64,000 nt of DNA from Bacillus sp. ISL-41. GTDB taxonomy: Bacteria > Bacillota > Bacilli > Bacillales > Cytobacillaceae. The translations under genes were made by a program, and so were the position numbers. Of the stretch, positions 31,077-45,534 are shown in pieces (position 1 is the stretch's first letter; the number at the start of each line of letters is the position of its first letter). The notes below the pieces were generated by a model. The model made no database searches. It was not told the origin of the DNA and was given only the letters and a program-made list of their open reading frames with translations. The stretch is taken from NCBI RefSeq assembly GCF_018613235.1, contig NZ_JAGGQP010000001.1, forward strand, positions 1-64,000, written 5' to 3'.

Positions 31077-32603
31077 TTAGCTGACAGGCTTATGCCCCGA
31101 TGCAGAAAGCGCATCTTCTTTCAGTTTCTTTTTATCGATTTTGCCTACATGCGTCTTCGGCATCTGGCCAATGGTATGGATTACTTTCGGCACTTTATAG
31201 CCGCCAAGCTTATGCCTGCAATGCATTTTGGCTTCCTGCTCTCCCAAAGCGGCTCCCTCTTCAAGAACAATGAATGCAGTCACGACTTCTCCCCATTTTT
31301 CATCCGGCATTCCGACCACCGCAGCCTCGCGAATCGAAGGATGGGAACAGAGCCAGTGCTCAATCTCGAGGGGATACACATTTTCACCGCCCGTGATGAT
31401 CATCTCTTTTTTCCTGCCGACAATATAGTAATAACCATCCTTATCTCTCTTAGCCAGGTCGCCTGTGTAGAGCCAGCCGTCCTTCAATGTGTCTTTGGTC
31501 GCGTTTTTATTTTTCCAGTAAAAAGAAAATGTATGTTTTCCCTGGATGGCAAGTTCACCGACCTCATCTGCTCCAGCCTCTTGTCCGTCTTCATCCAGAA
31601 TCCTGATACTATGGAATAACATTGGCTTGCCGACCGATCCCCTTTTTACATCTGCCTCTGAAGGATCTATGTAAAAATTATTTGGGCCAGCCTCTGTCAG
31701 TCCATAGCCCTCCTTGAAGCTCAGGCCTTTCTGTTTATAAGCTTCATAGATTTCGAGCGGGCACGGTGCACCCCCTGATAAAAATAGCTTTAGATTCTTG
31801 AATTCCGCCTTCTGAAAGAAATCTGATTTTACAAGCATATGGTGCATTGTAGGCACCAAAAGCACAATACTGGATTTAAACCTTATCATATTTTCGATAG
31901 CTTTATCGGGGGTAAAGTCGTTTGCCAGTACGACTTTTCCTCCTGCCATCAGGATAGGGATTGAAAGAGCGTTCAAACCGCCTGTATGGAATAGAGGCAA
32001 ATACGTTACCGTCGTGTCCTCGTTCGTCAGATTCCAGCTGGCGATTGTGGAAAGGCTGTTCCAGACGATTGCCCGATGTGACAGAACCGCTCCTTTGGGC
32101 TTTCCTGTGGTTCCGCCTGTATAAATCATCGCAAGTGGATCTTCCTCCTCCACATTTGTCTCTGCAGTATCCAACTGTCCAAGTTTTGCTTCAAATAGCT
32201 GATCGTATCGTGAACCATTGATTTGAATACAACGGTCTTCTTCATCCCAAATCATTGTCACTTCTTTTGTAAAATTGGAATGGAACGCCAGCAGTCTAGG
32301 CTCACAGTCCTTTATAATATATGCCAGCTCATCGAGGGACAGCCTCCAGTTCAGCGGCACAAAAATGGCGCCGATCTTTCCGCAGGCAAACAGCAAATCA
32401 AAGTAGCTGATCCCGTTCGGCGCAAGCAGTGCAACCCTGTCGCCTTTTTTGACACCCTTTTCACCCAGCCACGCTGCGATTGCTTTAGCCCGATCATTGA
32501 CTTCCCTAAAAGACCAATCCTGATCTGTCCCTGCATCGGCAATCGCAGCTGCATCCGGTGTCAATCCCGCTCTAGATTCAAGCCAGTCGAGCTCCCACCT
32601 CAC
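31077..32603 (-). CDS. Acyl-CoA ligase (AMP-forming), probable member of the BTAD-regulated acid pathway
   Basis: A 508-aa ANL-family ligase. Motifs: the P-loop [20 protein letters not shown] near 165, GYGLTEAGPNNFYI near 300, [28 protein letters not shown] near 380-405, and catalytic Lys in MPKTHVGKIDKKKL near 495. The start is a GTG at 32603 behind AAGGAGA. It resembles o-succinylbenzoate- and medium-chain acid ligases, but no menaquinone genes are near. Its promoter shares the heptad layout of the livK promoter, which argues that it activates the acid imported by that system. That link is inference. Confidence 0.85.
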   Translation of the reverse strand: MRWELDWLESRAGLTPDAAAIADAGTDQDWSFREVNDRAKAIAAWLGEKGVKKGDRVALLAPNGISYFDLLFACGKIGAIFVPLNWRLSLDELAYIIKDCEPRLLAFHSNFTKEVTMIWDEEDRCIQINGSRYDQLFEAKLGQLDTAETNVEEEDPLAMIYTGGTTGKPKGAVLSHRAIVWNSLSTIASWNLTNEDTTVTYLPLFHTGGLNALSIPILMAGGKVVLANDFTPDKAIENMIRFKSSIVLLVPTMHHMLVKSDFFQKAEFKNLKLFLSGGAPCPLEIYEAYKQKGLSFKEGYGLTEAGPNNFYIDPSEADVKRGSVGKPMLFHSIRILDEDGQEAGADEVGELAIQGKHTFSFYWKNKNATKDTLKDGWLYTGDLAKRDKDGYYYIVGRKKEMIITGGENVYPLEIEHWLCSHPSIREAAVVGMPDEKWGEVVTAFIVLEEGAALGEQEAKMHCRHKLGGYKVPKVIHTIGQMPKTHVGKIDKKKLKEDALSASGHKPVS

Positions 32604-32636: not shown

Positions 32637-32669
32637 ATTTTAGAAGATGGGAGTTACAGGATAGTTACA
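32637..32669 (-). promoter_or_regulatory. SARP-like heptad promoter of acyl-CoA ligase gene
   Basis: On the minus strand TGTAACT (32669-32663), 4 bp, TGTAACT (32658-32652), 9 bp, then TAAAAT (32642-32637). The heptads replace a -35 box. The same spacing occurs before livK at 41231-41263. A third TGTAACT lies at 32700-32706 within a tandem duplication. Confidence 0.75.
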
Positions 32670-32734
32670 TAAGTAAAAGACACCACAGCATTAGCTGATA
32701 GTTACATAAGTAAAAGGCACCACAGCATTAGCTA
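32661..32734. repeat. 37-bp tandem duplication
   Basis: Units 32661-32697 and 32698-32734 differ at two positions. Each carries an AGTTACA heptad and a half of the adjacent terminator stem. The duplication copied part of the terminator and one activator heptad into the ligase upstream region. Confidence 0.85.
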
Positions 32735-32741
32735 TGGTGCC
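32716..32741 (-). terminator. Terminator after the 111-aa gene
   Basis: GGCACCA (32716-32722) pairs with TGGTGCC (32735-32741), and the minus strand continues with TTTTACTTATG. It lies 7 bp past the stop at 32749 and overlaps the tandem duplication. Confidence 0.75.
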
Positions 32742-33605: not shown

Positions 33606-34346
33606 TCACATCATAATCCCGCCATCTACATGGAGGGTGGTACCGTTTACATATTTGGACTCGTCTGAGGCGAGGAACAAATAAGCATTGGCAATGTCCT
33701 CTGGCATACCGAGCCTGCCAAGGGGAACGAGCATCTTCATTTGTTCAATCACTTTGTCCGGCACTGCGGCGGTCATTCCCGTTTCAATGAATCCAGGTGC
33801 GACGGCATTAACATTGATGCCTTTGCGGCCGAGTTCCTTTGCCCATGTTTTCGTCATCCCGACGACTCCCGCTTTGGTCGCTGCGTAGTTTGTCTGGCCT
33901 ACATTGCCGTATATCCCGGAAACGGAAGATGTATTAATGATTCTTCCTGATCCTTGCTGGACCATCGCCGGCACAACTGCCTGTGCGCAATTGAATACGC
34001 CAGTCAGGTTAACATCAACGACTTTTTGAAAGTCCTCAGCCGCAAGCTTGTGAAGCATCCCATCCCTTGTGATGCCTGCATTATTTATTAAAATATCAAT
34101 TTTACCAAAATGGCCAAGAACGTTTTGGACCAACGTTTCAACACTGGACCTGTCAGCAACGTTCACCTGAAAAAAAGCGACGTCATAGCCCTCAGCAGAC
34201 AATTCAGCTGCGCGCTGCGAACCTGTTTCCTCATCAAAGTCCCCCATGGCAACCCTGGCGCCTTCACGGGCAAAAGTCTTTGCTGCAGCAAGCCCGATTC
34301 CGTTCGCTGCACCTGTAATAATCGCTACTTTATCTTTCAATCTCAT
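33606..34346 (-). CDS. Short-chain dehydrogenase/reductase, FabG/acetoacetyl-CoA reductase-like
   Basis: A 246-aa classical SDR. It has the cofactor site ITGAANGIGLAAA (10-22), NNAGITRDGM near 88, the catalytic Ser in INTSSVSG (about 139), and YAATKAG with the Tyr/Lys pair (about 153/157). The C-terminus VNGTTLHVDGGIMM is typical of FabG. It would reduce a 3-ketoacyl thioester, or oxidise the 3-hydroxy form, with NADP(H). It is the last gene of the liv operon, 12 bp after the hydrolase. The operon context suggests a 3-hydroxy/3-ketoacyl-CoA intermediate rather than housekeeping fatty acid synthesis. Confidence 0.88.
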   Translation of the reverse strand: MRLKDKVAIITGAANGIGLAAAKTFAREGARVAMGDFDEETGSQRAAELSAEGYDVAFFQVNVADRSSVETLVQNVLGHFGKIDILINNAGITRDGMLHKLAAEDFQKVVDVNLTGVFNCAQAVVPAMVQQGSGRIINTSSVSGIYGNVGQTNYAATKAGVVGMTKTWAKELGRKGINVNAVAPGFIETGMTAAVPDKVIEQMKMLVPLGRLGMPEDIANAYLFLASDESKYVNGTTLHVDGGIMM

Positions 34347-34358
34347 AAAAACACCTTC

Positions 34359-35261
34359 CTACTCTGCTAAAAATCCTTCAATATGCCTCAATAGCTGATC
34401 CAGGTCATCCACTAATGGCGAGTGGCCGCAATCCTTCAATTCCACAAACCTTGCACGCCCCCCAAAGTCCTCGACAATTTCATCTGCCATCCTCTCTGTA
34501 ACAACGAGATCCCGGTCACCCCGGAGCACAAGCACAGGAATCTGAATGTCCTTCACCTGGTCTGTTCCATCCTTCAACCCATTATTGACGGGACTGATAT
34601 TAAACGTATTAAGAGAATGGTAGACTTCAGCCAGATTGCGCTGTGTCAGCATATCATCAACATATTCGTCATAATGCCGTTCTTCCGGCTGACGATTGGT
34701 ATAAATCAACATATTCCACATTGCCTTTAGAAATCCTCTATTTAGCTGGTCATAGGCTGTCTGGACGGCAATCGTTTTACCAGCATCTCCTTTAACATCT
34801 TCATAAGTAACCAGCCGGTTGTTAACATCCGGCAGACCTTCTTCACTCGTCCCGAAGAACGGATATCCTCTTGTTGATGCTGAGGCGAGCAGCACGAGTT
34901 TCTCGCAATATCCCGGATAATCAGCAGCGAACTGCATGCCTACCGCTCCTCCCGTCGACCATCCGACAAGTGCAAAATCGTTCAATCCAATTACATCGAC
35001 AAACATTTTTAGATCATCAGAAAAATCCTTGATTGACATGATTGGCCTATGATAGCTGGATTCACCGAATCCCCGCAGGTCAAGCGCGAAAATTTTATAC
35101 TCGGGGTGAATCTGATCAATCAGCAAGTCCCAATGCTTGGACGATGTCATGTTACCATGGATCAATAACACATTTTTGGTTCCGCCATCCCGCTCCCTAT
35201 AAGCGATTGTCTCCCCATTTGGCAAGCCAACCTTCTTCATTTCCACTGCCGTTTTTTCCAT
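34359..35261 (-). CDS. Alpha/beta hydrolase
   Basis: A 300-aa soluble hydrolase. It has the oxyanion loop LLIHGNMTSSKHWD near 40, the nucleophile elbow VGWSTGGAVG (Ser about 113), the acid in LRGDRDLVV (about 245), and the final His in CGHSPLVDD (about 275), so the triad is intact. I start at the ATG at 35261, which overlaps the stop of the thiolase-fold gene as TAATG, behind GGAAAGGGTG. Esterase, lactonase or C-C hydrolase activity are all possible. Tight coupling to the thiolase-fold enzyme suggests it hydrolyses that enzyme's substrate or product. Confidence 0.85.
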   Translation of the reverse strand: MEKTAVEMKKVGLPNGETIAYRERDGGTKNVLLIHGNMTSSKHWDLLIDQIHPEYKIFALDLRGFGESSYHRPIMSIKDFSDDLKMFVDVIGLNDFALVGWSTGGAVGMQFAADYPGYCEKLVLLASASTRGYPFFGTSEEGLPDVNNRLVTYEDVKGDAGKTIAVQTAYDQLNRGFLKAMWNMLIYTNRQPEERHYDEYVDDMLTQRNLAEVYHSLNTFNISPVNNGLKDGTDQVKDIQIPVLVLRGDRDLVVTERMADEIVEDFGGRARFVELKDCGHSPLVDDLDQLLRHIEGFLAE

Positions 35262-36277
35262 TACAGCACACCCTTTCCCCAAACAATAGTCGTTGCTCCC
35301 CAGGCATAGCCGATCCCGGCACTGACTAGAACGACAACATCTCCGTCTTTTAACTTTCCTGCCTTTTCTGCCAATTCCAGAGACAGGATCTGGTCAATCT
35401 GTCCGATGTGCCCATAGTCTTCGAGGTAGATGGAGTTTTCTTCCGATAAACCCAGCTCCCCCAATACATAATCATGTGCAGACCTCTTCATGTGAAGCAT
35501 TCCGATGTAGGAAATGTCCTTTTCGGAAAATCCGCTATTCTCCACGGACCGCCGGATGACCTTTAAAAAATTGCCCATCGACTTTTGCTCGAGCCGCTCC
35601 TTCATTCCCTTCGGATCAAGAACATCAAGCTGGTACAGGCCTTGTGCCAGATTTTCCGCAGAAATCGGATTTTTTGTTCCTCCGGCAACAACGACGACAT
35701 CCTCTGAAAAAGATCCATCCGTAATCATTTCTGTTTCCAGCAACACGTTCTTGCCATGGCCCTTTTGCAGGATAATCGCACCTCCGCCTGCCCCAAGATT
35801 GTACATGAACCGTGTTCTCGGATTCTGGTAATCTATAAAATCTCCATTGCGATAGCCCCCGGCAAGGAGAACGGTATTGATTCCCGAATCAGAGAGCATC
35901 ATCCCTTTCGCCAACTTCAGTGCCATCACAGTCGTTCCGCATCTTAAGGCCGTATCGAAGGCCCAGGCATTCTTGGCGCCAATTTCCTCCTGCAGCTTGA
36001 TGCCGGCTGTCCATAATGGATACTCCTTGTACTCCTCGCCTATATAGATGACCAGGTCAATGTCCAGCGGATCCAGGTTTGCTTTTTCCAATGCCATTCT
36101 TGCAGCTTTTATTCCCATCTCACATGTATGGTCTTCCGGGCCGGGCACCGGCTTTTTCCTGATACCCATTTTTTCTTCCACAACTTGTTCGGGAATTCCT
36201 GCCAACCGGGCAATTTCCGCTCCGGTGACATAGGTTTCGGGAAGATAGACTCCCGTACTAACAATGCCAATCTGCAT
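35261..36277 (-). CDS. KAS III-like thiolase-fold enzyme with Asn-to-His substitution
   Basis: A 338-aa protein of the FabH/KAS III group. It keeps the nucleophile Cys113 (AFDTALRCGTTVMAL) and His262 (GMLHMKRSAHD), and the closing GIGYAWGATTIVW. At the place of the third catalytic residue, where FabH has the Asn of YGNTSAAS, this protein reads YGHIGQID, giving His290. It therefore may not do ordinary decarboxylative condensation. The ATG at 36277 is chosen because GAGGGGGG lies six bases upstream. It is the seventh gene of the liv operon, 24 bp after the 59-aa gene. It is unlikely to be the housekeeping fabH because no fab genes are near. Confidence 0.82.
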   Translation of the reverse strand: MQIGIVSTGVYLPETYVTGAEIARLAGIPEQVVEEKMGIRKKPVPGPEDHTCEMGIKAARMALEKANLDPLDIDLVIYIGEEYKEYPLWTAGIKLQEEIGAKNAWAFDTALRCGTTVMALKLAKGMMLSDSGINTVLLAGGYRNGDFIDYQNPRTRFMYNLGAGGGAIILQKGHGKNVLLETEMITDGSFSEDVVVVAGGTKNPISAENLAQGLYQLDVLDPKGMKERLEQKSMGNFLKVIRRSVENSGFSEKDISYIGMLHMKRSAHDYVLGELGLSEENSIYLEDYGHIGQIDQILSLELAEKAGKLKDGDVVVLVSAGIGYAWGATTIVWGKGVL

Positions 36278-36301
36278 CTTCATCCCCCCTCAAAAAACGG
36301 T

Positions 36302-36481
36302 CTATGATTCACCAACAATTTCCTTAATAAATTTCATTGCCGACTCCAAGGAATCAAACACTGCTTCTTTTTCTTCCTGCACATGCGTTACCTTGACTCT
36401 CCAGTATTTTCTGCTGCTGTCCATTTCGATGTCCGTGAGCTGGAAGCGGAGGACGAATGAAGTAACTTGCTTTGTTTCCAT
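36302..36481 (-). CDS. Small conserved protein coupled to LivM, 59 aa
   Basis: It starts METKQVTSFVLRFQLTD at an ATG that overlaps the livM stop as TGATG, with GGGAG seven bases upstream. A longer in-frame ORF extends into livM but has no ribosome site. The protein is soluble, with a predicted beta-beta-alpha pattern (VLRFQLTDIE, YWRVKVTHVQ, then a helix EAVFDSLESAMKFIKEIV). I do not recognise the family. It could be a small regulator of the transporter or an accessory of the thiolase-fold enzyme. Confidence 0.7.
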   Translation of the reverse strand: METKQVTSFVLRFQLTDIEMDSSRKYWRVKVTHVQEEKEAVFDSLESAMKFIKEIVGES

Positions 36482-37491
36482 CACGAATCTCCCTGACTTA
36501 TAGTCTCTGAGTCTACTGGAACCGCAGTTGTCTTTTTCTTTCTGAATTTCAGCTTCTGTAAAGAACCGACAATCCCCTGAGGGAAGAACATGACAGCAAG
36601 GATATAAATGATTCCGAAAAAGATAATCCATCTTTCGAAAATCCAGTGCACCTTAGCCAGCTCTGTCAGCCAGTGATGGGAAAACTCGATGATTCCCGCG
36701 CCGATGATCGCCCCTACAAGCGTCCCGACTCCGCCAATGATTGTCATCAGCAAGGCATCAAGTGTGATGTCCATCGTAAAAACACTCGTGTTAACGAATC
36801 TTAAGGACACAGCATATAAAATCCCTGCAATTCCAGCGATGACTCCTGACACGACACTGGCAATGACTTTATATTGAAGAACGCTATATCCGAGCGATTC
36901 TGTCCGCTGTTCATTTTCCCGAATCGCCTGAAGGACTCTTCCTAGCGGTGAGTTGGTGAACCTTTTTAACAAAATGAAGACAATGACCATCGAAGCGAGG
37001 CAAATTAGGTAAAAATCAGTCCGGTCCTTCAGGAAGTCCGGGACCCGGAAAGTAAAGCCGTCATTTCCGTAAGTAACAGTCCGCCATTTTTCAGCGAGCA
37101 CCAAAAACAATCCCGCGAACGCCATCGTCAGCATCGCGTAAAAATGGCTTTTCAGCCGCAGTGTCAGCAGTCCGACAACATAACTGACCACAGCAGTCAG
37201 CAAAATCGTGACCAGGACAGCGAGCAGAAAGTAGCTTGTTTCCGGCTCAAACCTTTTCATGAAGACACCAACTGTATATGCCCCGATTCCGAAAAACATC
37301 GCATGTCCGAACGAGACGATTCCGGTGTATCCGAGCAGGATGTCATAACTCATCGCCAATACCGCAAAAATAAACACCTGAGAGAGAAGGATGAGCGTGC
37401 TTCTGGAGTCATAGACAAACGGAAGTACTGCCAGGAACCCGGCGACAAGCAAATATAAGATGTTCATGCGATTTGAAAACATTCTTGTCAT
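36481..37491 (-). CDS. livM: Branched-chain-amino-acid-type ABC transporter permease LivM-like
   Basis: A 336-aa inner-membrane permease with about nine helices and the LivM signature segments LLGYTGIVSFGHAMFFGIGAY near 55 and AIRENEQRTESLGYSVLQYK near 190 (the EAA-like ATPase-contact loop). It is followed by GGVGTLVGAIIGAG. The start lies 8 bp after livH with GGGGTGAG upstream. LivHMGFK systems carry amino acids, but many homologues carry aromatic or aliphatic acids, amides or urea. Given the CoA-ester enzymes encoded here, an organic acid is the more likely cargo. Confidence 0.88.
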   Translation of the reverse strand: MTRMFSNRMNILYLLVAGFLAVLPFVYDSRSTLILLSQVFIFAVLAMSYDILLGYTGIVSFGHAMFFGIGAYTVGVFMKRFEPETSYFLLAVLVTILLTAVVSYVVGLLTLRLKSHFYAMLTMAFAGLFLVLAEKWRTVTYGNDGFTFRVPDFLKDRTDFYLICLASMVIVFILLKRFTNSPLGRVLQAIRENEQRTESLGYSVLQYKVIASVVSGVIAGIAGILYAVSLRFVNTSVFTMDITLDALLMTIIGGVGTLVGAIIGAGIIEFSHHWLTELAKVHWIFERWIIFFGIIYILAVMFFPQGIVGSLQKLKFRKKKTTAVPVDSETISQGDS

Positions 37492-37498
37492 CCTTTTC

Positions 37499-38359
37499 TC
37501 ACCCCTTTGCCCCGAATAAGCCCTGCGGCCTGAAGATCAGCACGACTGCCATCAGCAGCATGTTTGCTGCCAGCGCCAGGTCCGGAACATAGTAGGCCAT
37601 GAATGAACCTGACAATCCAACCAGAATTGCAGCCATTACCGAGCCCGTAAAGCTGCCCATTCCGCCAATGACCACTACGATGAATGCAAGGATCGCGAAC
37701 TCCATGCCCATATCCGCATAAATCACGCCAGAATATGGCCCTAAAAGCATTCCGCCAAGAGCAGCCATGCCGGCCCCAATCATGAACACGAACATGAATA
37801 CTCTCTGGATGTTGACGCCGAGTGATTGGACCATTTCCTTGTTCATCACACCTGCGCGAACGACAAGGCCGATTTTTGTCTTTTTTAACAGGTATTGAAC
37901 AGCAAGGAATACGGCAAATCCTACGGCAATGATGAAAACGCGGTATTTAATGATGATGATCCCGCCGAACTCCCAGCTGCCAGAAAGGTAATCAGGAGTT
38001 GTTGCTGAAATCTGGTTAGGCCCCCAGACCACCTTTAGCATCTCTGATAAAACAAGCATCAGGCCGAGAGTGATCAAGATTTGCTGCACATAGTTGCCGT
38101 AAACAGGCTTGATGATCCAACGCTCGGTTATAATTCCAAGAATCATGCCGGTAAGGACCGCACCGATGATCCCCGCAAAAAAGCTTCCTGTTGATGAATA
38201 TATCCAAATGCCGCTGTATGCACCCCAGGCAAACAATCCGCCATGGGCAAAATTAAGCACATCCATCAAGCCAAAAATCAAAGTAAGGCCGGCTGCCAGG
38301 AGAAAGATCAGCATTCCTGTGGCAAGGCCGTTAAGGCTTAAGTTAATCAAAACATCCAC
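37499..38359 (-). CDS. livH: Branched-chain-amino-acid-type ABC transporter permease LivH-like
   Basis: A 286-aa inner-membrane permease with about eight helices. It has the N-terminal GLTLIFGLMDVLNFAHGGLFAWGAY motif and RAGVMNKEMVQSLGVNIQRV, the cytoplasmic loop that contacts the ATPases. The start is a GTG at 38359 behind AAAGGGGG. It pairs with LivM 8 bp downstream to form the channel. Confidence 0.88.
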   Translation of the reverse strand: MDVLINLSLNGLATGMLIFLLAAGLTLIFGLMDVLNFAHGGLFAWGAYSGIWIYSSTGSFFAGIIGAVLTGMILGIITERWIIKPVYGNYVQQILITLGLMLVLSEMLKVVWGPNQISATTPDYLSGSWEFGGIIIIKYRVFIIAVGFAVFLAVQYLLKKTKIGLVVRAGVMNKEMVQSLGVNIQRVFMFVFMIGAGMAALGGMLLGPYSGVIYADMGMEFAILAFIVVVIGGMGSFTGSVMAAILVGLSGSFMAYYVPDLALAANMLLMAVVLIFRPQGLFGAKG

Positions 38360-38376
38360 TCTTGCTTCCCCCTTTC

Positions 38377-39084
38377 CTACGCAATGCCGAGATATTTCCG
38401 TCTCATTTCTTCGTCCTCACGGAGGAGGTTCATCGAGCCATTCGAAACCGTCCTGCCATCATCGATAATGTAAAAGCTGTCGCCAATACTGCTGGCCATC
38501 ATGAAATTTTGTTCAACAAGGATGATTGTTGTCTTATCCTTCATTTGCTGAATGGACTCCATTACTTTCTCAACGATGATCGGAGCAAGGCCTTTGCTTG
38601 GTTCATCGATCAAGAGCAGTTCATTGTCATTGACATACGCTCTTGCGATGGAAAGCATCTGCTTCTGGCCGCCGCTCAAAAGCCCGCCCGGTTTTTTCCA
38701 GAATTTTTTCAAGTCAGGAAAAAGCTCCAGAATCCAGTCCAGCCGCTGCCGGGTTTCATCATTTTCTTTTTTCATCGCCACTTTGATATTCTCTTCGACG
38801 GTAAGGCCGGCAAAAATCCCCTGGTCTTCAGGCACATAACCAATCCCATTATTTGCAATCGTATAGGTTGGCAGGCTCTTGATTTCTTCACCTTTAAATT
38901 GAACCGAGCCTTTAGCAGCCGGGTTCAGCCCCATGATTGTTCTCAGTGTCGTTGTTTTCCCGGCTCCATTCCGCCCCAGCAGTACGGTAACCTCCCCCTT
39001 TGGCACTTCAAATGAGATACCTTGAAGGATGTGATACTGGCCGATGAATGTCTCGACCTGGTCAAGCTTTAGCAGCGTGTTCAC
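38377..39084 (-). CDS. livF: ABC transporter ATP-binding protein LivF-like
   Basis: A 235-aa ATPase with Walker A GRNGAGKTT near 38, signature LLSGGQKQMLSIARA near 135 and Walker B LLLIDEPSKGLAP. The LivF hallmark VPEDQGIFAGLTVEENI is present. I start at the GTG at 39084, which follows GGGAGG and overlaps the livG 3' end by 23 bp. Confidence 0.88.
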   Translation of the reverse strand: MNTLLKLDQVETFIGQYHILQGISFEVPKGEVTVLLGRNGAGKTTTLRTIMGLNPAAKGSVQFKGEEIKSLPTYTIANNGIGYVPEDQGIFAGLTVEENIKVAMKKENDETRQRLDWILELFPDLKKFWKKPGGLLSGGQKQMLSIARAYVNDNELLLIDEPSKGLAPIIVEKVMESIQQMKDKTTIILVEQNFMMASSIGDSFYIIDDGRTVSNGSMNLLREDEEMRRKYLGIA

Positions 39085-39835
39085 TATGCAAACCTCCCAA
39101 ATAGGCAGACTGTACCGTTTCATTTTTCATGATTTCCTCAGGCGTCCCGTCGGCGAGCAGAGCACCATTGAACAAAACCATGATCGAATCCGAAAGATCC
39201 ATGATCATATCCATTTTGTGTTCAATCAAAACGATCGTCCGGTCGCCGCGTTCCTTGATTTTCCTGATTACCTCAAGGATTGCCGGGACCTCTTCCAGTG
39301 ACATGCCTGCTGTCGGTTCATCGAGCAGCAGCACCTCTGTGTTCAAAGCCAGCAGCATCGCAATTTCCAGCTTCCTTTTCTCTCCATGGGCAAGATTACT
39401 CGCGAGCGCGTCCTTCTTGCTATCAAGCAAGACAAGCTTCAGCCACTCTTCTGCCTGCTCTTCGAACTTTTTAAAAGAACGGAAATGCCTCAGCATCTGA
39501 AAACGCACTCCTTCATGGGACTGGACTGCAAGCCGGACGTTCTCCATAACCGTCAAATTGGGGAAGACATTGGTGATCTGGAAGGACCGCCCGATTCCGG
39601 CCCTGGTCCTTTTGGTCGGAGAAAGCTTTGTGATGTCATTGCCTTTATACATGACCTGTCCGTTCGTCGGCATGAGCTGCCCGCTTAACAGGTTGAAGAA
39701 TGTCGTTTTTCCGGCACCGTTCGGACCGATAATGGATTTGAAATGATTGTGCGGCACAGAGATGCTGACTGAATCTACCGCAGTATGGCCACCAAATGTA
39801 ATGCTAAGGTCTTTCGTCTCGATAATTGCCGTCAT
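39062..39835 (-). CDS. livG: ABC transporter ATP-binding protein LivG-like
   Basis: A 257-aa ATPase with Walker A GPNGAGKTTFFNLLSG near 36, the LivG-type RAGIGRSFQITNVFPNLTVMENV, a variant signature LAHGEKRKLEIAM (AHGEK replaces the usual SGGQ, as is common in LivG), and Walker B VLLLDEPTAGM. The ATG at 39835 follows GGTGGTG; the ORF extends 54 bp further upstream without a ribosome site. Confidence 0.88.
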   Translation of the reverse strand: MTAIIETKDLSITFGGHTAVDSVSISVPHNHFKSIIGPNGAGKTTFFNLLSGQLMPTNGQVMYKGNDITKLSPTKRTRAGIGRSFQITNVFPNLTVMENVRLAVQSHEGVRFQMLRHFRSFKKFEEQAEEWLKLVLLDSKKDALASNLAHGEKRKLEIAMLLALNTEVLLLDEPTAGMSLEEVPAILEVIRKIKERGDRTIVLIEHKMDMIMDLSDSIMVLFNGALLADGTPEEIMKNETVQSAYLGGLHSEHAAKA

Positions 39836-39887
39836 GTACTTCACCACCCTTGATAAAATTACGTCTGCGCACCGATTCAGTAAAAGC

Positions 39888-39923
39888 ATAATGAACTTCG
39901 GCTGAGTTACCGAAGTTCATTAT
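39888..39923 (-). other. Intercistronic hairpin between livK and livG
   Basis: A perfect 14-bp stem (39888-39901 with 39910-39923) has an 8-nt loop. The minus strand continues GCTTTTACTG, a weak U-tract. It starts 11 bp after the livK stop, so it may end part of the transcripts and protect livK mRNA, giving excess binding protein. Confidence 0.7.
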
Positions 39924-39934
39924 AGACCTGTTTG

Positions 39935-41179
39935 TTAATTGCGGATCGGCGGGGCTGTTTCTTCTGGAGAGAGCTCACGAATCAGGACTGGAACTGGATA
40001 GTCGACCCCATCCTTTTTCTCCAATTTGATAGCGTATAATGCCTGGAGTGCCTGATGGTCTTCTTCCCGGAAGGTCATTTTGCCTTTTGGAGAATCAAAG
40101 CTCATTCCCTCCATCGTTTCGATCAATTTCTTGGAATCCGTGTCACCCTCGGTTTTCTTCAACGCTTCGACAATCGCCATCGCGGCTGTCATGCCTCCTG
40201 GTGTAAATAAATCCGGCAGCTCACCGTTGAAGCGTTTTTTATGTTCGTCAACAAGCCATTTATTGATGTCATTTTGCGGAAGGTCATGATAATAGACGGT
40301 AAAGCCTTCCATGCCGACAAGCGGCTCCATCGTTGCCAGCGCTGCGATATCAGGAGCACCTGTGGAGATTTTGATTCCTTTTTCCTGGACCTTCATATCT
40401 GAAATCTGGTTCCATGGAGAATTCGCTCCAGCCCAGACAACAAATAAGTAATCTGGCTTCTGGTCGATGATTTTCTGGATGTTGGAAGTGAAGTCAGTTG
40501 CAGCTGGATCTGCATATTCTTCATGGACGATTTCAGCGCCAAGTTTTTCTGCTGCTTCTTTGAACGCTGCGACGCCATCACGGCCAAACGAATAATCCGG
40601 AGCCAGAGTCGCGATTTTTACACCATCCTTGGCAATGGCCGCGGCACCCGCAACAGCATCCTGCGAAGAGTTACGCGCCGTGCGGAAAATATATTCATTG
40701 AATTCAGAGCCCGTAATGCTGTCCGCTACAGCCGGCTCGACGATCATGATTTTTTCATATTCCTCAGCTAATGGCAGGACTGCTAGCGTGTCACCTGAGC
40801 TTGAAGATCCGACCAGGAAGTCTACTTCATCTTCTTCAAGCAGCTTCGTTGCTTTTTGGACTGCTACCTCAGGTTTGGTTTCCGTATCTTCAACGATGAA
40901 TTCGATTTTTCGGCCCGCTACTTCATTCGTTCCGTCAGTTGCGTATTCTAGTCCTAGCTCGAACCCGCGTAGTGTCTGCTTTCCATATGCTTCAAGTCCG
41001 CCTGTTTGCGAAGCCAGCACACCAATCTTAATTGGTTCCGTGTTCTTCGGTTCATCTTTTCCTTCTTTTCCTTCCGTACCGCCTGACTTCTCTGTCCCCG
41101 ATCCACCGCAGGCACTTGTAAACAACAGGACCAAAATGAGCATAAAAGATAAAACAAAATTCCGCTGACCAGCTTTCAT
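39935..41179 (-). CDS. livK: ABC transporter substrate-binding lipoprotein, LivK/amide type
   Basis: A 414-aa type I periplasmic-binding-fold lipoprotein (lipobox LFTSAC, Cys about 24; then a Gly/Glu/Lys linker). The mature part begins EPIKIGVLASQTGGLEAYGKQTLRGFELGLEYA and contains DFLVGSSSSGDTLAVLPLAEEY and APDYSFGRDGVAAFKEAAEKLGAEIVHEEY, typical of Leu-Ile-Val/amide/aromatic-acid binding proteins. It is first in the nine-gene operon. The ATG follows AAAGGGGGAAAGG. Ligand unknown. Confidence 0.9.
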   Translation of the reverse strand: MKAGQRNFVLSFMLILVLLFTSACGGSGTEKSGGTEGKEGKDEPKNTEPIKIGVLASQTGGLEAYGKQTLRGFELGLEYATDGTNEVAGRKIEFIVEDTETKPEVAVQKATKLLEEDEVDFLVGSSSSGDTLAVLPLAEEYEKIMIVEPAVADSITGSEFNEYIFRTARNSSQDAVAGAAAIAKDGVKIATLAPDYSFGRDGVAAFKEAAEKLGAEIVHEEYADPAATDFTSNIQKIIDQKPDYLFVVWAGANSPWNQISDMKVQEKGIKISTGAPDIAALATMEPLVGMEGFTVYYHDLPQNDINKWLVDEHKKRFNGELPDLFTPGGMTAAMAIVEALKKTEGDTDSKKLIETMEGMSFDSPKGKMTFREEDHQALQALYAIKLEKKDGVDYPVPVLIRELSPEETAPPIRN

Positions 41180-41230
41180 TTCCTTTCCCCCTTTAAAATA
41201 GTGATTCCAAAGCCCACAAGCTTTGACATC

Positions 41231-41263
41231 ATCTTAAAAAATGGAAGTTACAAATGAGTTACA
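41231..41263 (-). promoter_or_regulatory. SARP-like heptad promoter of the liv operon
   Basis: On the minus strand TGTAACT (41263-41257), 4 bp, TGTAACT (41252-41246), 9 bp, TAAGAT (41236-41231). No recognisable -35 exists apart from the heptads. The geometry is the same as before the ligase gene. The rest of the 346-bp intergenic gap (41264-41525) shows no gene or clear further site, only an AT-rich stretch with several TTCC motifs. Confidence 0.75.
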
Positions 41264-41525
41264 GCAAATTGGGTATGTCATGGAGGGCATTGTTGAAGGT
41301 GAAAAACAGAGGAGTAGTTAAGAAATTAATAGTGAAATAAATAAAAGGGAACAAGTTCATGAATGCCGTATTTTGTTGTTCATTCCGGCAAATATACTGC
41401 AGGCATGATTTATAATTTCCGCCAACCGTAAAATTCCACTTTTATATTTCCGAATAAAATAGTATCCCCTCCTATTTTTATGGCAATAACTTTACTAAAT
41501 TGCCTAGAACATGGAGGGGATTTCT

Positions 41526-41843
41526 ATGAAGGGAATCTATTTGATCAATGAAAAGATTCATATAAATGGGCACTTGCAGGATGAGAGCGTTGAAATACAG
41601 CAAGCGGCCCTGCTGGACTTAATGGATAAAGAAAGTGTAGTTCCTGTAAAATTAAACCCTTATCAATTAAACCAGCATTATACAATCCCGCACGCCCTCT
41701 TCTATGATTTAAAGCTGCACAAAAAGCAGATTGATTGTCTGCTGATGTATTCAAATGAGACAATAGCTGATTTTGGTGCAACCTATCCGGCAAGATGGCT
41801 GATCCTAAAAAGTTATTTTGACCGCATCCTTACAGTGGCTTAA
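41526..41843 (+). CDS. Hypothetical protein, 105 aa
   Basis: I do not recognise this protein. It starts MKGIYLINEKIHINGHLQDESVE behind a strong GGAGGGG and has no signal peptide or membrane segment. Features are a Gln/Asp/Leu-rich middle and a C-terminal half with IDCLLMYSNETIADFG and ARWLILKSYFDRIL. It lies between the liv operon and the activator gene on the opposite strand, so a link to that system is possible but unsupported. Confidence 0.65.
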   Translation: MKGIYLINEKIHINGHLQDESVEIQQAALLDLMDKESVVPVKLNPYQLNQHYTIPHALFYDLKLHKKQIDCLLMYSNETIADFGATYPARWLILKSYFDRILTVA

Positions 41844-41870: not shown

Positions 41871-42272
41871 TCAAAAGCCGTCCGTCCCGCCAAATGCAAT
41901 GCAGTAGCCATCAGGGTCTTTGATGGCAAACTCCTTCCAGGGGCCATTATTCTCATCAACCCATGGCTCAATGGCCATTTGCGCCCCCTTTTCTTTGAAT
42001 TCATGGTATAACTCATCAAGCGAATTCCAGTCTTCAACATAGCAATATAGGTCGAACCCCTGCTTTTCACTTGCTGCCGGCGGATTAGGCCTCACATCTT
42101 TCGGTTCGCTGGCTTGCAGCAGTTTTATTGCCAGTCCAGAAAACCCATCACGAATGGCCCACCAGTCCGTCACCTCGCAGCCTAATACATCAGAGTAAAA
42201 ATTCCGCGATTTTTCCAGGTCCGATACCAATAAAACCTTTAATGAACTGTGAATCTGTCTTTTGTGCTCCAT
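41871..42272 (-). CDS. VOC-superfamily (glyoxalase/bleomycin-resistance-like) protein
   Basis: A 133-aa protein with the paired beta-alpha-beta-beta-beta modules of the vicinal-oxygen-chelate fold: SSLKVLLVSDLEKSRNFYSDVLGCEVTDWW, then FDLYCYVEDWNSLDELYHEFKEKGAQM and FAIKDPDGYCIAFGG with the metal-type Glu replaced by Ala-Phe. Activity is therefore unclear; it may be a binding protein or dioxygenase-like. I start at the ATG at 42272 (AGGAGG upstream), 19 bp after the activator stop, so it shares that transcript. Confidence 0.8.
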   Translation of the reverse strand: MEHKRQIHSSLKVLLVSDLEKSRNFYSDVLGCEVTDWWAIRDGFSGLAIKLLQASEPKDVRPNPPAASEKQGFDLYCYVEDWNSLDELYHEFKEKGAQMAIEPWVDENNGPWKEFAIKDPDGYCIAFGGTDGF

Positions 42273-42291
42273 TCCATTTCCTCCTGTAAGT

Positions 42292-45200
42292 CTATTGATT
42301 ATGTCCTTCAATAATCATCTCATACATATGCCTAGTCGGTTCCAGCGGAGTGACTCCCAGTTCCTCCTCCAGCACTTCACTGCATTTTTTATACCATCGT
42401 ATTGCCTGCGGGCGATTGTTCTTCCGATAATAGCAAAACATCAGCAATCGGTAGGCTTCCTCCCATGTCCTGTCTCTATGGAGGATTTTTTGGCACCAAT
42501 GAATGGCAGAATCATAGTTTTCACGCCTTACATTCAGCTGAGCGAGCTTTTCGGCACTGCGCAAAAAATATACAAGCAGCCGTTCACGTTCATTGAGGCA
42601 CCAATCCTCATACCGTCGTTCAGGAAGATAATCCCCGTTATATAAATTCAAGGCACGTTCTAATTCTTCCATAGACTTTTCGGTGTTCTTTTCTTCAAGG
42701 CCGGCTTCTGCCCATTCTTCAAAAATACGGGAATCCAGTTCAATTGCTGCCTGAGGGTTAATTCCGTAGCCTGTTCCCTCCCTGATAATGAAAAACGGGG
42801 TGGATCTCGCCTTGCGGGCAGGCTCCAGTACATTATTCAAGGCATTCAGAGCAACTTTAAAGTCCCTGTCTGCACTTTTTTCCTCATGGACTGGCCATAG
42901 AATCTGGAAAATGTCCTCCTTCATCAGGAACTGGCTTCTCTTCGTCAAGAAAAGCTGGAAAAGCTCTTTTGCTTTCCCCCTCTGCCAATCCCTGTCCTCC
43001 ACTTCCCGGTCTCCAAGCCAGAGCCTGAATTGACCAAGCGTTTGTACTCTTAATGTATAGCCAGGGTGGGCATTCAAGCGCGGAATTTTCAAATCCTCCA
43101 GCAGCTTCTCTGCATATCCGGGCATTATCGAGTGCTTTACTGCTTGAATGAGCATCGGGGCGAAAATTTGCAAGTCCCGGGGACCAAATGTCGTCCGCTT
43201 TTTCAGGAAAAATTCATATCCTCCTGTCTTCATCCATTTTAAAAAGCTTGAAAATGCTGTTCTGAACTCCTGCTCGTCATTTAAAGAGAAATAATAATAG
43301 GACGTCCAAAACGCTAGCAGCATCCTGCCATATTCATCGCCGCACTGACTGATCAGTCCCTCTGCTTTGCGAAGGTTCTCGAATGCTTCCTTGTGCCTTT
43401 CGTTGTAGATTGACGCAATGGCCAGGCATAAGGTAATGAGGGCTGACAGCCAAACATCCTTCACCTGTTCTGTTTCCAGCAGCGCCTTTCTTCCAGCCTC
43501 AGCTGCCCTTTCATATTCACGCCTTGATCCATAGAGGATACACAGGCCCATCAGCGGTTCGGCCTTCCCTCTTTCGATGCTCAGACGCCCCATGATATCG
43601 AGTGCCGTTTCATAGCATTTTTCTGCCAGAGCCAGGTCATATTGTTCAATCAGCTGGACTGCATGGCCCATCCTGATCCATCCGCAAGCCTCCACAAATG
43701 GAGCCTGGATGTCAATCCCATACTGTATCCCTGATTGAGACAAGGTCTTCGCCTGCATGCCATTGCCTGTAAAAGCTTCAATCAATGCCAGCAGCAAATC
43801 CGTTTCCCTATGTGATTGCGGCAAATGCTGCTTTTCATCCAGATGCCCATTTGTTTTAACATCATTTAGAATCCTTCTCGTTTCTTCAAATCGGCCGGTC
43901 CTTAAAGTTAGCCGGGCTTCCAGGTTTCCATCCTCAATATGGACACCCATCGACCTTGCCCGTTCTATCCATTTTTCTGCCTTCAGAGCCTGCCCGGAAT
44001 TGATCAGGTTTTCAGCAAGAAGGCGATAGAGCCTTCCCGTTTCCTCTGCAGCAGCATCAAGCATCGCCTCTTCCCGAAGCTCAATAGCCTGAGCTAAAAT
44101 GCGTTCAGCCTTAAGCGGCTGGATTGTATCAAGATAAATTTTCGCTTTGCCTTCGAGTGCCTTGCTTTTCCATTCCGCATTTCCCATTCTGTCAGCTGTC
44201 TGAATTGCCTGTTCATAACATGCTTCGGCTTGCTTGTACAATGAGCGGTAACGGTACACTTCGCCTTCAAGAAATAAAAGTGACCAATAGCGGTTTTTAT
44301 CTTCCAGCGGGATTCTTGCCAGCCGCTCCTGCAGATTCTCGAGCTTTCCCATTTCGAGAAGCTCCATCCCCTGTTCATCCATAATCGCCGCAGCTGCCTG
44401 ATATTGGCCAATTTTTTCATAGCAGTATAAAGCCTCTTCCCACTGTCCTTTTTTTTCAAAATAATAGGCACTGTTCATCATTAAAACTCTGTATTGTTCA
44501 GGCTGGCTTGTGATCAGCCTGTTCTCGAGGAATTCGCGGAAAAGGGCATGATACCTGAACTGGCTCTCGCCAATCTCTTGAATGAACAGGTTTTTCACAG
44601 TCAGCTGCTGCAGCATCTGGATGGAACCGTTCATACCGAGGATATGGTCACATACATCCGTGCTTATTTCTTCAAAGATGCTTGTCTGTTCAAGAAACTG
44701 CTGGATCATTGGGGGCTGTTTCGAAAACACTTCATAAACCAAGTATTGAAAAAGATCCTCAAGCGACTTTGCAGGCTCTGCCAGGAGCTCGTCAAGGCTA
44801 TGAAGATGCGGCAGCTGCTGAGCGATCATTCCAATTGCGATGACCCACCCTTCTGTAATGTGATACAGCTGGTCAATCTGTTCGTCGCTAATAGTCATCT
44901 GATAATGATCAGAAAGGAGCAGCTCAATTTCTTCTTTGCCGAAAATCAAATCTGCCTTCGAAATTTCATTTAACTCATTTTTCGCCCTTATCTTAGCAAG
45001 TACTTTCCAGCCCGGCTTTGTTCTGGCCGAAATCACAAGATGGAGATGGCCCGGCATATGCTCCAGCAGTTTTTCCATCCAGACATTGATATGGTAGGAA
45101 TGTTCGATCGCGTGGAAATCATCAAGGATGACAATGATCTGTTCCGGTATCTGAAGGATCTCATTGATGAAAAGTGAAGAGAGCATACCTAGTTCCTCTT

Positions 45201-45534
45201 CCCTTATATAACGGTCCATTTTTTTCATATATGGTATTAACTCGTGGCCAAAGTCCGGGAACAAGGTTTGAATCGATGCTGTCAAATAGGAAAGAAACGG
45301 AAGAATATCGTCATCGGAAGAAGTGATTGTATACCAGCAGCATGACTGTTTCTGGTCTTTGACATGCAATGCCAGAGCCGTGCTCTTGCCATAACCGGCG
45401 CCCGCCTGGATAATGGTCAGCGGCTTTTCGGAAATCGCTTTCATTTTCCTCGATAATTTTGCCCGCCTTATCCATTGTTCCTGTAAGCCAGGAACAATTA
45501 ATTTTGTTTTGATCAATGGCAATGTTCCCTGCAT
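42292..45534 (-). CDS. STAND-ATPase/BTAD transcriptional activator (MalT/SARP-like)
   Basis: A 1080-aa cytosolic regulator. The N-terminal NTPase (about 10-330) opens like MalT (LIKTKLIVPG, RRAKLSRKM) with Walker A QAGAGYGKSTAL and Walker B IIVILDDFHAIE. TPR-like helical repeats fill about 380-820. An OmpR-type winged helix (about 835-930: LGQFRLWLGDREVEDRDWQRGKAKELFQ) precedes a bacterial transcriptional activation domain, BTAD (about 940-1075). Proteins of this plan bind an inducer in the TPR part and act on direct repeats. It probably controls the liv operon and the ligase gene, whose promoters carry 11-bp-spaced heptads. It is co-transcribed with the VOC gene. Confidence 0.85.
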   Translation of the reverse strand: MQGTLPLIKTKLIVPGLQEQWIRRAKLSRKMKAISEKPLTIIQAGAGYGKSTALALHVKDQKQSCCWYTITSSDDDILPFLSYLTASIQTLFPDFGHELIPYMKKMDRYIREEELGMLSSLFINEILQIPEQIIVILDDFHAIEHSYHINVWMEKLLEHMPGHLHLVISARTKPGWKVLAKIRAKNELNEISKADLIFGKEEIELLLSDHYQMTISDEQIDQLYHITEGWVIAIGMIAQQLPHLHSLDELLAEPAKSLEDLFQYLVYEVFSKQPPMIQQFLEQTSIFEEISTDVCDHILGMNGSIQMLQQLTVKNLFIQEIGESQFRYHALFREFLENRLITSQPEQYRVLMMNSAYYFEKKGQWEEALYCYEKIGQYQAAAAIMDEQGMELLEMGKLENLQERLARIPLEDKNRYWSLLFLEGEVYRYRSLYKQAEACYEQAIQTADRMGNAEWKSKALEGKAKIYLDTIQPLKAERILAQAIELREEAMLDAAAEETGRLYRLLAENLINSGQALKAEKWIERARSMGVHIEDGNLEARLTLRTGRFEETRRILNDVKTNGHLDEKQHLPQSHRETDLLLALIEAFTGNGMQAKTLSQSGIQYGIDIQAPFVEACGWIRMGHAVQLIEQYDLALAEKCYETALDIMGRLSIERGKAEPLMGLCILYGSRREYERAAEAGRKALLETEQVKDVWLSALITLCLAIASIYNERHKEAFENLRKAEGLISQCGDEYGRMLLAFWTSYYYFSLNDEQEFRTAFSSFLKWMKTGGYEFFLKKRTTFGPRDLQIFAPMLIQAVKHSIMPGYAEKLLEDLKIPRLNAHPGYTLRVQTLGQFRLWLGDREVEDRDWQRGKAKELFQLFLTKRSQFLMKEDIFQILWPVHEEKSADRDFKVALNALNNVLEPARKARSTPFFIIREGTGYGINPQAAIELDSRIFEEWAEAGLEEKNTEKSMEELERALNLYNGDYLPERRYEDWCLNERERLLVYFLRSAEKLAQLNVRRENYDSAIHWCQKILHRDRTWEEAYRLLMFCYYRKNNRPQAIRWYKKCSEVLEEELGVTPLEPTRHMYEMIIEGHNQ

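Follow-up and report, generated by a model that had tools for sequence, protein, structure and literature searches.

Twin heptads as the probable operator of a BTAD regulator in Bacillales, with a proposed role in polyhydroxyalkanoate use

In a 64,000-nucleotide stretch of Bacillus sp. ISL-41 (contig NZ_JAGGQP010000001.1, positions 1 to 64,000; the whole analysed stretch is called the window), a livK-like operon on the minus strand is preceded by two copies of the heptamer TGTAACT and a -10 hexamer, and a gene encoding a BTAD-domain protein (42292-45534) lies nearby. The question raised by this locus is which protein reads the repeats, and on behalf of which genes. The initial annotation had proposed that the heptads follow the layout of SARP-type operators and that the BTAD protein activates the livK promoter. 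Comparison across genomes indicates that the twin heptads are very probably the operator of the neighbouring BTAD protein. The new elements are a second promoter, a fixed geometry across dozens of genera, a presence/absence coupling to the regulator gene, and a target set pointing to polyhydroxyalkanoates (PHA).

Two promoters of identical layout

The minus strand from 41263 to 41231 reads TGTAACT-CATT-TGTAACT-TCCATTTTT-TAAGAT, exactly as first described, with heptad 1 at 41263-41257, CATT at 41256-41253, heptad 2 at 41252-41246 and a nine-nucleotide spacer (N9) at 41245-41237. The accompanying statement that no other -35 box is present also held, i.e., a sigma-70 scan of 41150-41560 found no -35/-10 pair at the heptad promoter, its sole match lying at 41486-41459. 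A second exact twin heptad, unremarked in the initial annotation, was found at 32669-32652 on the same strand, before the acyl-CoA ligase gene that closes the cluster; because it is followed by an equal N9 and a -10 hexamer, the two promoters of the cluster share one layout:

41246..41263, minus strand: predicted operator of promoter 1 (livK operon), twin heptad TGTAACT-CATT-TGTAACT; exact match, conserved upstream of livK
41231..41236, minus strand: -10 hexamer TAAGAT of promoter 1, 9 bp past heptad 2, without a -35 box
41224, minus strand: predicted transcription start of promoter 1, a conserved A 7 nt after the -10
32652..32669, minus strand: predicted operator of promoter 2 (acyl-CoA ligase), twin heptad TGTAACT-ATCC-TGTAACT; exact match
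32637..32642, minus strand: -10 hexamer TAAAAT of promoter 2, 9 bp past heptad 2

At up to two mismatches the window contains two twin-heptad matches, both exact (shuffle mean 0.22), and the 4.62 Mb genome has no further exact copy. The genome-wide count rules out a chance origin of the twin heptads, as do reversed-pattern controls, the spacing spectrum and a de novo repeat search. At up to two mismatches the whole genome holds 22 sites, compared to 40 for the reversed control pattern; thus, just the two exact sites stand out, and no wider regulon is added in this genome.

Conservation was assessed in 100 stretches from genomes of the same family, mostly 20 kb around an orthologue of the BTAD gene. 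A lack of conservation upstream of orthologous operons had been named as an observation that would speak against the original proposal; all 79 livK upstream regions scored (window included) carry the twin heptad with at most one mismatch, both heptads being exact in 66 and one mismatch occurring in 13. The 81 ligase upstream regions have 0 mismatches in 62 cases, 1 in 16, 2 in one and 5 in two. It should be noted that these counts represent the best match within 1 kb and are thus biased towards the motif. Five livK loci in which the alignment starts past residue 40 were left unscored (G024, G181, G185, G151 and G102); read separately, each of these proved to carry the twin heptad at no more than one mismatch. 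An unbiased search for 6-mer direct repeats gave TGTAAC at an 11-bp period as the commonest repeat, in 77 of the 79 livK and 73 of the 81 ligase regions; upstream of livG, livH, KAS3, SDR or BTAD, the six commonest repeats do not include it. The 82 regions upstream of the BTAD gene, where autoregulation was considered, likewise do not have the twin heptad among their six commonest repeats.

For column statistics, promoters with identical spacers were collapsed and the ligase regions of G097 and G050, the two with five mismatches, excluded, leaving 63 livK and 71 ligase promoters. The mean information content per column (livK/ligase) is 1.94/1.92 bits for the heptads, 0.50/0.42 for the four-nucleotide spacer, 0.51/0.29 for N9 and 1.43/1.55 for the -10. 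Among TGTAACY pairs up to 40 bp apart, the spacer is 4 in 141 of 142 pairs from 80 family loci and in 56 of 59 from 40 loci of the order, the latter including L148 and L149, which were picked for having the motif. The hexamer TANNNT stands exactly 9 bp after heptad 2 in 186 of 197 twin sites, the next best offset scoring 25. Allowing up to two mismatches to TATAAT raises the count at offset 9 to 191 of 197, but offsets 12 and 7 then score 80 and 64, and the TANNNT count is preferred for that reason. An A located 7 nt after the -10 (column +39) is conserved with 1.88 bits in livK and 1.71 bits in ligase promoters; with this A as the predicted start, the heptads lie at -39 to -33 and -28 to -22.

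This geometry is that of SARP targets, which are direct repeats with a period of 11 (or 22) bp, the 3' repeat being about 8 bp from the -10 and the -35 being overlapped (PMC10936776). The period here is 11 bp, the distance to the -10 is 9 bp, i.e., 1 bp above the value given for SARPs, and the -35 position is overlapped. The SARP/BTAD layout assigned to the heptads is thus upheld, with a match within about 1 bp to AfsR, a large SARP of Streptomyces coelicolor, at the afsS promoter (PMC10936776). Heptads with 4-nt spacers are also read by PimR and related SARP-LAL regulators, and efficient binding of PimR takes at least two protein monomers (PMC5930380).

Two further features were noted just upstream of promoter 2. 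A 37-bp tandem duplication at 32660-32733 (2.0 copies, 97% match) copies one heptad and part of a hairpin, leaving an extra lone TGTAACT:

32716..32741, minus strand: terminator-like hairpin separating promoter 2 from the genes upstream of it; the stretch has 2 such hairpins compared to 1.1 expected in shuffles

The BTAD regulator and its coupling to the heptads

42292..45534, minus strand: regulator with an N-terminal MalT-like STAND ATPase, a TPR region, and a C-terminal OmpR-type winged helix followed by BTAD (BTAD part 42313-42738)

The BTAD gene reported beside the operon is real, and it is the sole PF03704 match in the genome; two small open reading frames (ORFs), glyoxalase-like (41871-42311) and 110 aa long (41511-41843), lie between it and livK. 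The MalT model NF003420 covers residues 7-494 of the regulator at 4.2e-67, although its 226.9 bits are below the cut-off of 537, and the ATPase motif residues G45, G47, G49 and K50 are invariant in 19 BTAD proteins; TPR matches are also present. The output of MalT, the activator of the maltose regulon, is a LuxR-type helix-turn-helix. The regulator shares the N-terminal STAND ATPase region with MalT but ends in a winged helix and BTAD, with no Pfam match to a LuxR-type helix-turn-helix at E 0.001.

An OmpR-type DNA-binding domain followed by BTAD is the arrangement of the SARP family, and the closest folds to the C terminus are AfsR and EmbR; the winged helix is PhoB-like. EmbR of Mycobacterium tuberculosis is not known to have a STAND part and, unlike the regulator, has an extra C-terminal FHA domain. 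The SARP-type domain lies at the C terminus (about residues 827-1076 of 1080) instead of the N-terminal placement of the family, and the setting is a catabolic operon in a Bacillales host instead of an actinobacterial antibiotic cluster. Compared to AfsR, the output domain is C-terminal rather than N-terminal, the heptad is TGTAACY, the host belongs to Bacillota, and the regulon is catabolic (PMC10936776). In PimR and SARP-LAL regulators the SARP domain is N-terminal as well (PMC3367932), and PimR further differs in its word CGGCAAG, in a main operator off the -35 box and in serving antifungal biosynthesis (PMC5930380).

If the heptads are read by this protein, gene and motif are expected to occur together. 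Among 193 family genomes, the BTAD orthologue and the exact twin heptad are both present in 80 and both absent in 103, with 8 having the BTAD gene only and 2 the motif only; 124 of the 139 motif places lie on the contig of the BTAD gene within 25 kb of it. Of the eight genomes with BTAD only, five have a site with one mismatch (G002, G097, G114, G181, G185) and three have only pieces of the BTAD gene (G153, G163, G179); of the two with the motif only, G044 retains a decayed BTAD remnant and G018 none. Within the order, orthologues were found in 98 of 397 genomes (42 of 135 genera) and the motif pattern, which at this level includes the -10, in 38 of 135 genera. Both are present in 90 genomes, BTAD only in 8, the motif only in 5 and neither in 294. 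On reading, all eight BTAD-only genomes carry the twin heptad before livK at one mismatch or less; the pattern had missed them because of their -10s (CATAAT, CATACT, TATAAA) and, for G279, G334 and G453, because of one heptad (TGCAACT) as well. For locus L173, which had no livK site at the threshold of one listing, the order pattern search gives one (G360), in which the last base of both heptads is C.

Because the genomes are related and not independent, the comparison was repeated inside 13 of the genera that include species with and without the gene: both are present in 40, BTAD only in 3 (all among the eight order cases), the motif only in 1 (G519) and neither in 62. The site also follows its target gene: in L084, L096, L102, L103 and L104, 5 to 15 kb separate livK from the BTAD gene, and the site is found at livK. 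In 80 named loci, including those of Mesobacillus, Neobacillus, Cytobacillus, Sutcliffiella, Oceanobacillus and others, an exact site lies within about 6 kb after the BTAD gene in 54, and one with at most one mismatch in 65.

Some genomes depart from the common state of the regulator gene. The BTAD gene of G011 (L118) has several stop codons, which looks like recent decay, and both promoters and the poly-3-hydroxybutyrate (PHB) depolymerase gene of this genome keep near-consensus operators. G459, G479 and G555 have no large BTAD orthologue; they carry open frames of 382-393 aa whose similarity to it is confined to the C-terminal part, and these may be small SARP-like proteins, perhaps with the same heptad word. 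Two full-length BTAD relatives, possibly with different heptads, are found in each of G749 (as neighbours) and G958 (about 20 kb apart). A record titled Chryseobacterium sp. ISL-80 (L282) has a BTAD protein 85% identical to that of the window and the same promoter; thus, it appears to be a Bacillales genome under a wrong name.

A profile of 19 BTAD proteins identified relatives in other Bacillota, and 22 of their loci (L183-L204), some with little flanking sequence, were examined; L205-L209, whose matches are confined to the ATPase half, were not counted among these relatives. At 14 of the 22 loci, two or more TGTAAC-type words occur at the 11-bp period (three words in L185, L187 and L188), and the spacings up to 30 that stand out are just 4 (21 pairs) and 15, i.e., two periods (7 pairs). 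Of the BTAD proteins collected, 117 were kept, L087 and L118 being excluded for internal stops; L186 and L198 (wrong or partial frames) were ignored in the residue comparison. Lys893 of the recognition helix (window protein numbering) is Lys in all 19 rows of the BTAD alignment and in the usable TGTAAC-type rows, and is Asn or Ser in L199, L202 and L201, where the heptad word is TGTAAGT (mixed in L201). A suggestive covariation between this residue and the heptad word is seen in these sequences. The most distant relative, L204, has neither the lysine nor a TGTAAC-type pair.

Genes behind the operators

The genes downstream of the two promoters are as follows:

39935..41179, minus strand: substrate-binding protein of Liv/HAAT type, livK-like (Peripla_BP_6, 9.1e-70)
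36481..39889, minus strand: ABC transporter ORFs, livG, livF, livH and livM-like; Liv/Urt models matched below cut-offs
35261..36283, minus strand: KAS III-like enzyme (NF005308, 3-oxoacyl-ACP synthase, 531.8 bits, cut-off 315)
34359..35282, minus strand: intracellular short-chain-length PHA depolymerase by model, an alpha/beta hydrolase (NF050089, 455.5 bits, cut-off 300)
33606..34346, minus strand: short-chain dehydrogenase/reductase (SDR) of the 3-oxoacyl-ACP reductase (FabG) type (NF004198, 322.2 bits, cut-off 296)
31077..32603, minus strand: acyl-CoA ligase under promoter 2 (AMP-binding, 3.8e-84)

Among the loci listed in the family, the usual order is BTAD, livK, livG, livF, livH, livM, a small ORF, KAS III-like, alpha/beta hydrolase, SDR and ligase, with local losses and insertions. 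The SDR reaches 258.7 bits with the acetoacetyl-CoA reductase model TIGR01829, under its cut-off of 302.1, and the ligase is above the cut-off for none of 25 NCBIfam models among the matches listed. The cluster looks like one serving the use of PHA or 3-hydroxybutyrate rather than of amino acids, judging by these assignments. In the reading of this locus as a livK operon, the promoter stands; "liv" is a similarity label, and the regulon comprises at least two promoters here.

Sites away from the cluster point in the same direction. Twenty such twin sites were read, and 18 remained after leaving out L125 (the decayed cluster of G044) and L297 (the G433 ligase on another contig). Thirteen of the 18 precede an ORF matching PF10503 (PHB depolymerase) by 13 to 100 bp (G001, G011, G073, G191, G519, G360, G202, G219, G499, G212, G288, G532 and G452). 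The starts of these ORFs resemble secretion signals as judged by eye, and the two proteins run against NF050058 (extracellular type 1), those of G001 and G360, scored 325 and 331 bits (cut-off 150); the site of G191 has its -10 away from offset 9 and precedes a fragmentary ORF of 134 aa. As to the other off-cluster sites, those of G018 and G478, which lack a BTAD orthologue, are 238 and 518 bp from the next ORF; those of G024 and G158 have no -10 at offset 9, the latter lying inside an ORF; and that of G449 (L294; reverse-strand position 117, -10 TATTAT) precedes by 45 bp the gene of a 418-aa protein that seems to be a secreted alpha/beta hydrolase, has no Pfam match over the cut-off and is possibly another depolymerase type. 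Six listed sites on contigs without the BTAD gene (two each in G325 and G515, G499 C34 and G202 C1) are outside the count of 18 and may be pieces of split clusters. In G562 (L159) the BTAD gene, one site, an intracellular depolymerase gene (NF050089, 459.3 bits), an SDR gene and a thiolase gene stand in a row which, by its predicted functions, is a short route from PHB towards acetyl-CoA.

The alternative that survives best, although we consider it unlikely, keeps the regulator/operator pair and changes the substrate to a branched-chain amino acid or a fatty or aromatic acid, the depolymerase names being mere family labels. It draws on the Liv-type transporter, on a ligase without a specific model, on gene names that rest on similarity, and on the window's genome being without a PF10503 match. 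Conversely, NF050089, and NF050058 for two off-cluster proteins, are well above their cut-offs, 13 of 18 off-cluster sites precede PF10503 genes, and PF10503 was found, by one search method, in 0 of 12 congeners without BTAD versus 2 of 2 with it.

Proposed mechanism and its alternatives

We propose, with good confidence in the explanation as a whole, that the BTAD protein with the twin heptads as its operator is an ATP-dependent activator of genes for PHA use. What is read directly from the genomes is the operator with its conservation, its link to the regulator gene and the genes that follow it; binding, activation, sigma adaptation, inducer and substrate are the conditional parts. The N-terminal half would act as a MalT-like STAND ATPase, followed by TPRs that probably sense an inducer, and the C-terminal 266 residues would form the SARP-type DNA-binding and activation domain. 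Each of two such domains would occupy one heptad, next to the other, over about -39 to -18 counted from the conserved start; so positioned, the upstream heptad is proposed to stand in for the missing -35 box, and the bound domains would offer a docking surface to sigma region 4 and RNA polymerase, as shown for AfsR. Promoter 1 would then be switched on to express the genes of the ABC transporter, the PHA depolymerase, the reductase and the KAS III-like enzyme, promoter 2 to express that of the acyl-CoA ligase, and in some relatives a secreted PHB depolymerase gene would follow. Probable inducers are 3-hydroxybutyrate as monomer or oligomer, or its CoA ester.

Several observations weigh against this explanation. 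(i) G018 has an exact motif with neither a BTAD match nor a -10, and five order genomes (G519, G478, G459, G479, G555) have the pattern but no orthologue: G519 has no BTAD match at E 1e-5 and its site precedes a PHB depolymerase gene, the site of G478 has no evident target, and the sites of the other three, whose genomes hold other BTAD-part open frames, fall outside the set of sites read. (ii) The ligase-promoter sites of G097 and G050 were not found. (iii) Outside the order, 8 of the 22 loci have no TGTAAC-type word, and the Lys893 covariation involves three loci only. (iv) Phylum-wide, the bare pattern occurs in 41 of 398 genomes versus 29 with the reversed control; thus, far from the order, the motif is meaningful only when beside a BTAD gene. 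(v) No PF10503 match was found in the window's genome, and the extracellular depolymerase arm is therefore drawn from relatives; the strain itself may feed on 3-hydroxybutyrate or oligomers set free by other organisms, or may mobilise stored polymer. (vi) Activation rather than repression is argued by analogy. The original proposal of an activator is supported: the pairing of regulator and promoter is very probable from co-occurrence and conservation, and its activating sense follows the analogy to known systems.

A BTAD protein that binds the heptads yet represses, as an operator overlapping the promoter might imply, is improbable: the promoters are without a -35 box, and the operator is at the position where AfsR activates. 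A slimmer chance still is given to a site for an OmpR/PhoB-type response regulator such as PhoP, with the BTAD gene as a bystander. PhoP-type regulators also read 11-bp direct repeats and are widespread in Bacillaceae; the BTAD protein's winged helix is itself PhoB-like, so such repeats could fit either protein, and the reverse strand, GTTACA-N5-GTTACA, is near TTAACA-like PhoP words. However, of the genomes without a BTAD orthologue, 103 of 105 in the family and 294 of 299 in the order lack the motif, and 13 of the 18 off-cluster sites precede PHB depolymerase genes. That the upstream TGTAAC, which resembles -35 boxes of extracytoplasmic function (ECF) sigma factors, is such an element is hardly credible, given that it is present twice, exactly 11 bp apart, that the -10 is TANNAT located 21 bp past the first TGTAAC, that the bases about 16-20 bp past it are variable and T/C-rich with no fixed CG-type box, and that the motif tracks the BTAD gene across genomes.

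With the BTAD protein as the favoured reader of the heptads, a comparison to PHA regulation in Bacillus is in order. PhaQ of Bacillus megaterium is likewise a regulator of PHA metabolism in a Bacillus, but, unlike the proposed activator, it is a PHA-responsive, autoregulated repressor of phaP (PMC9049629). The word SARP is absent from that review (PMC9049629), and among the matches listed in the open-licence PubMed Central literature, neither a SARP/BTAD regulator of PHA use nor the occurrence of these heptads in Bacillota was described.

More broadly, and with somewhat less assurance, we consider it likely that a MalT-like ATPase with a C-terminal SARP-type output is a dedicated activator of PHA use in much of Bacillales, with a related form in other Bacillota, which would respond to a 3-hydroxybutyrate-derived signal and link uptake, the intracellular depolymerase and acyl-CoA steps to a secreted PHB depolymerase, in species having one, through a single twin-heptad operator replacing the -35 box. 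If true, SARP-type sigma adaptation would be neither actinobacterial nor bound to antibiotics, and an operator, a regulator and a probable target pathway would be named for a large orphan activator family in Bacillota. The bypass of a missing -35 box by a SARP could then be tested outside actinobacteria, and the system would be a candidate switch for the microbial degradation of PHB, a natural polyester and biodegradable plastic.
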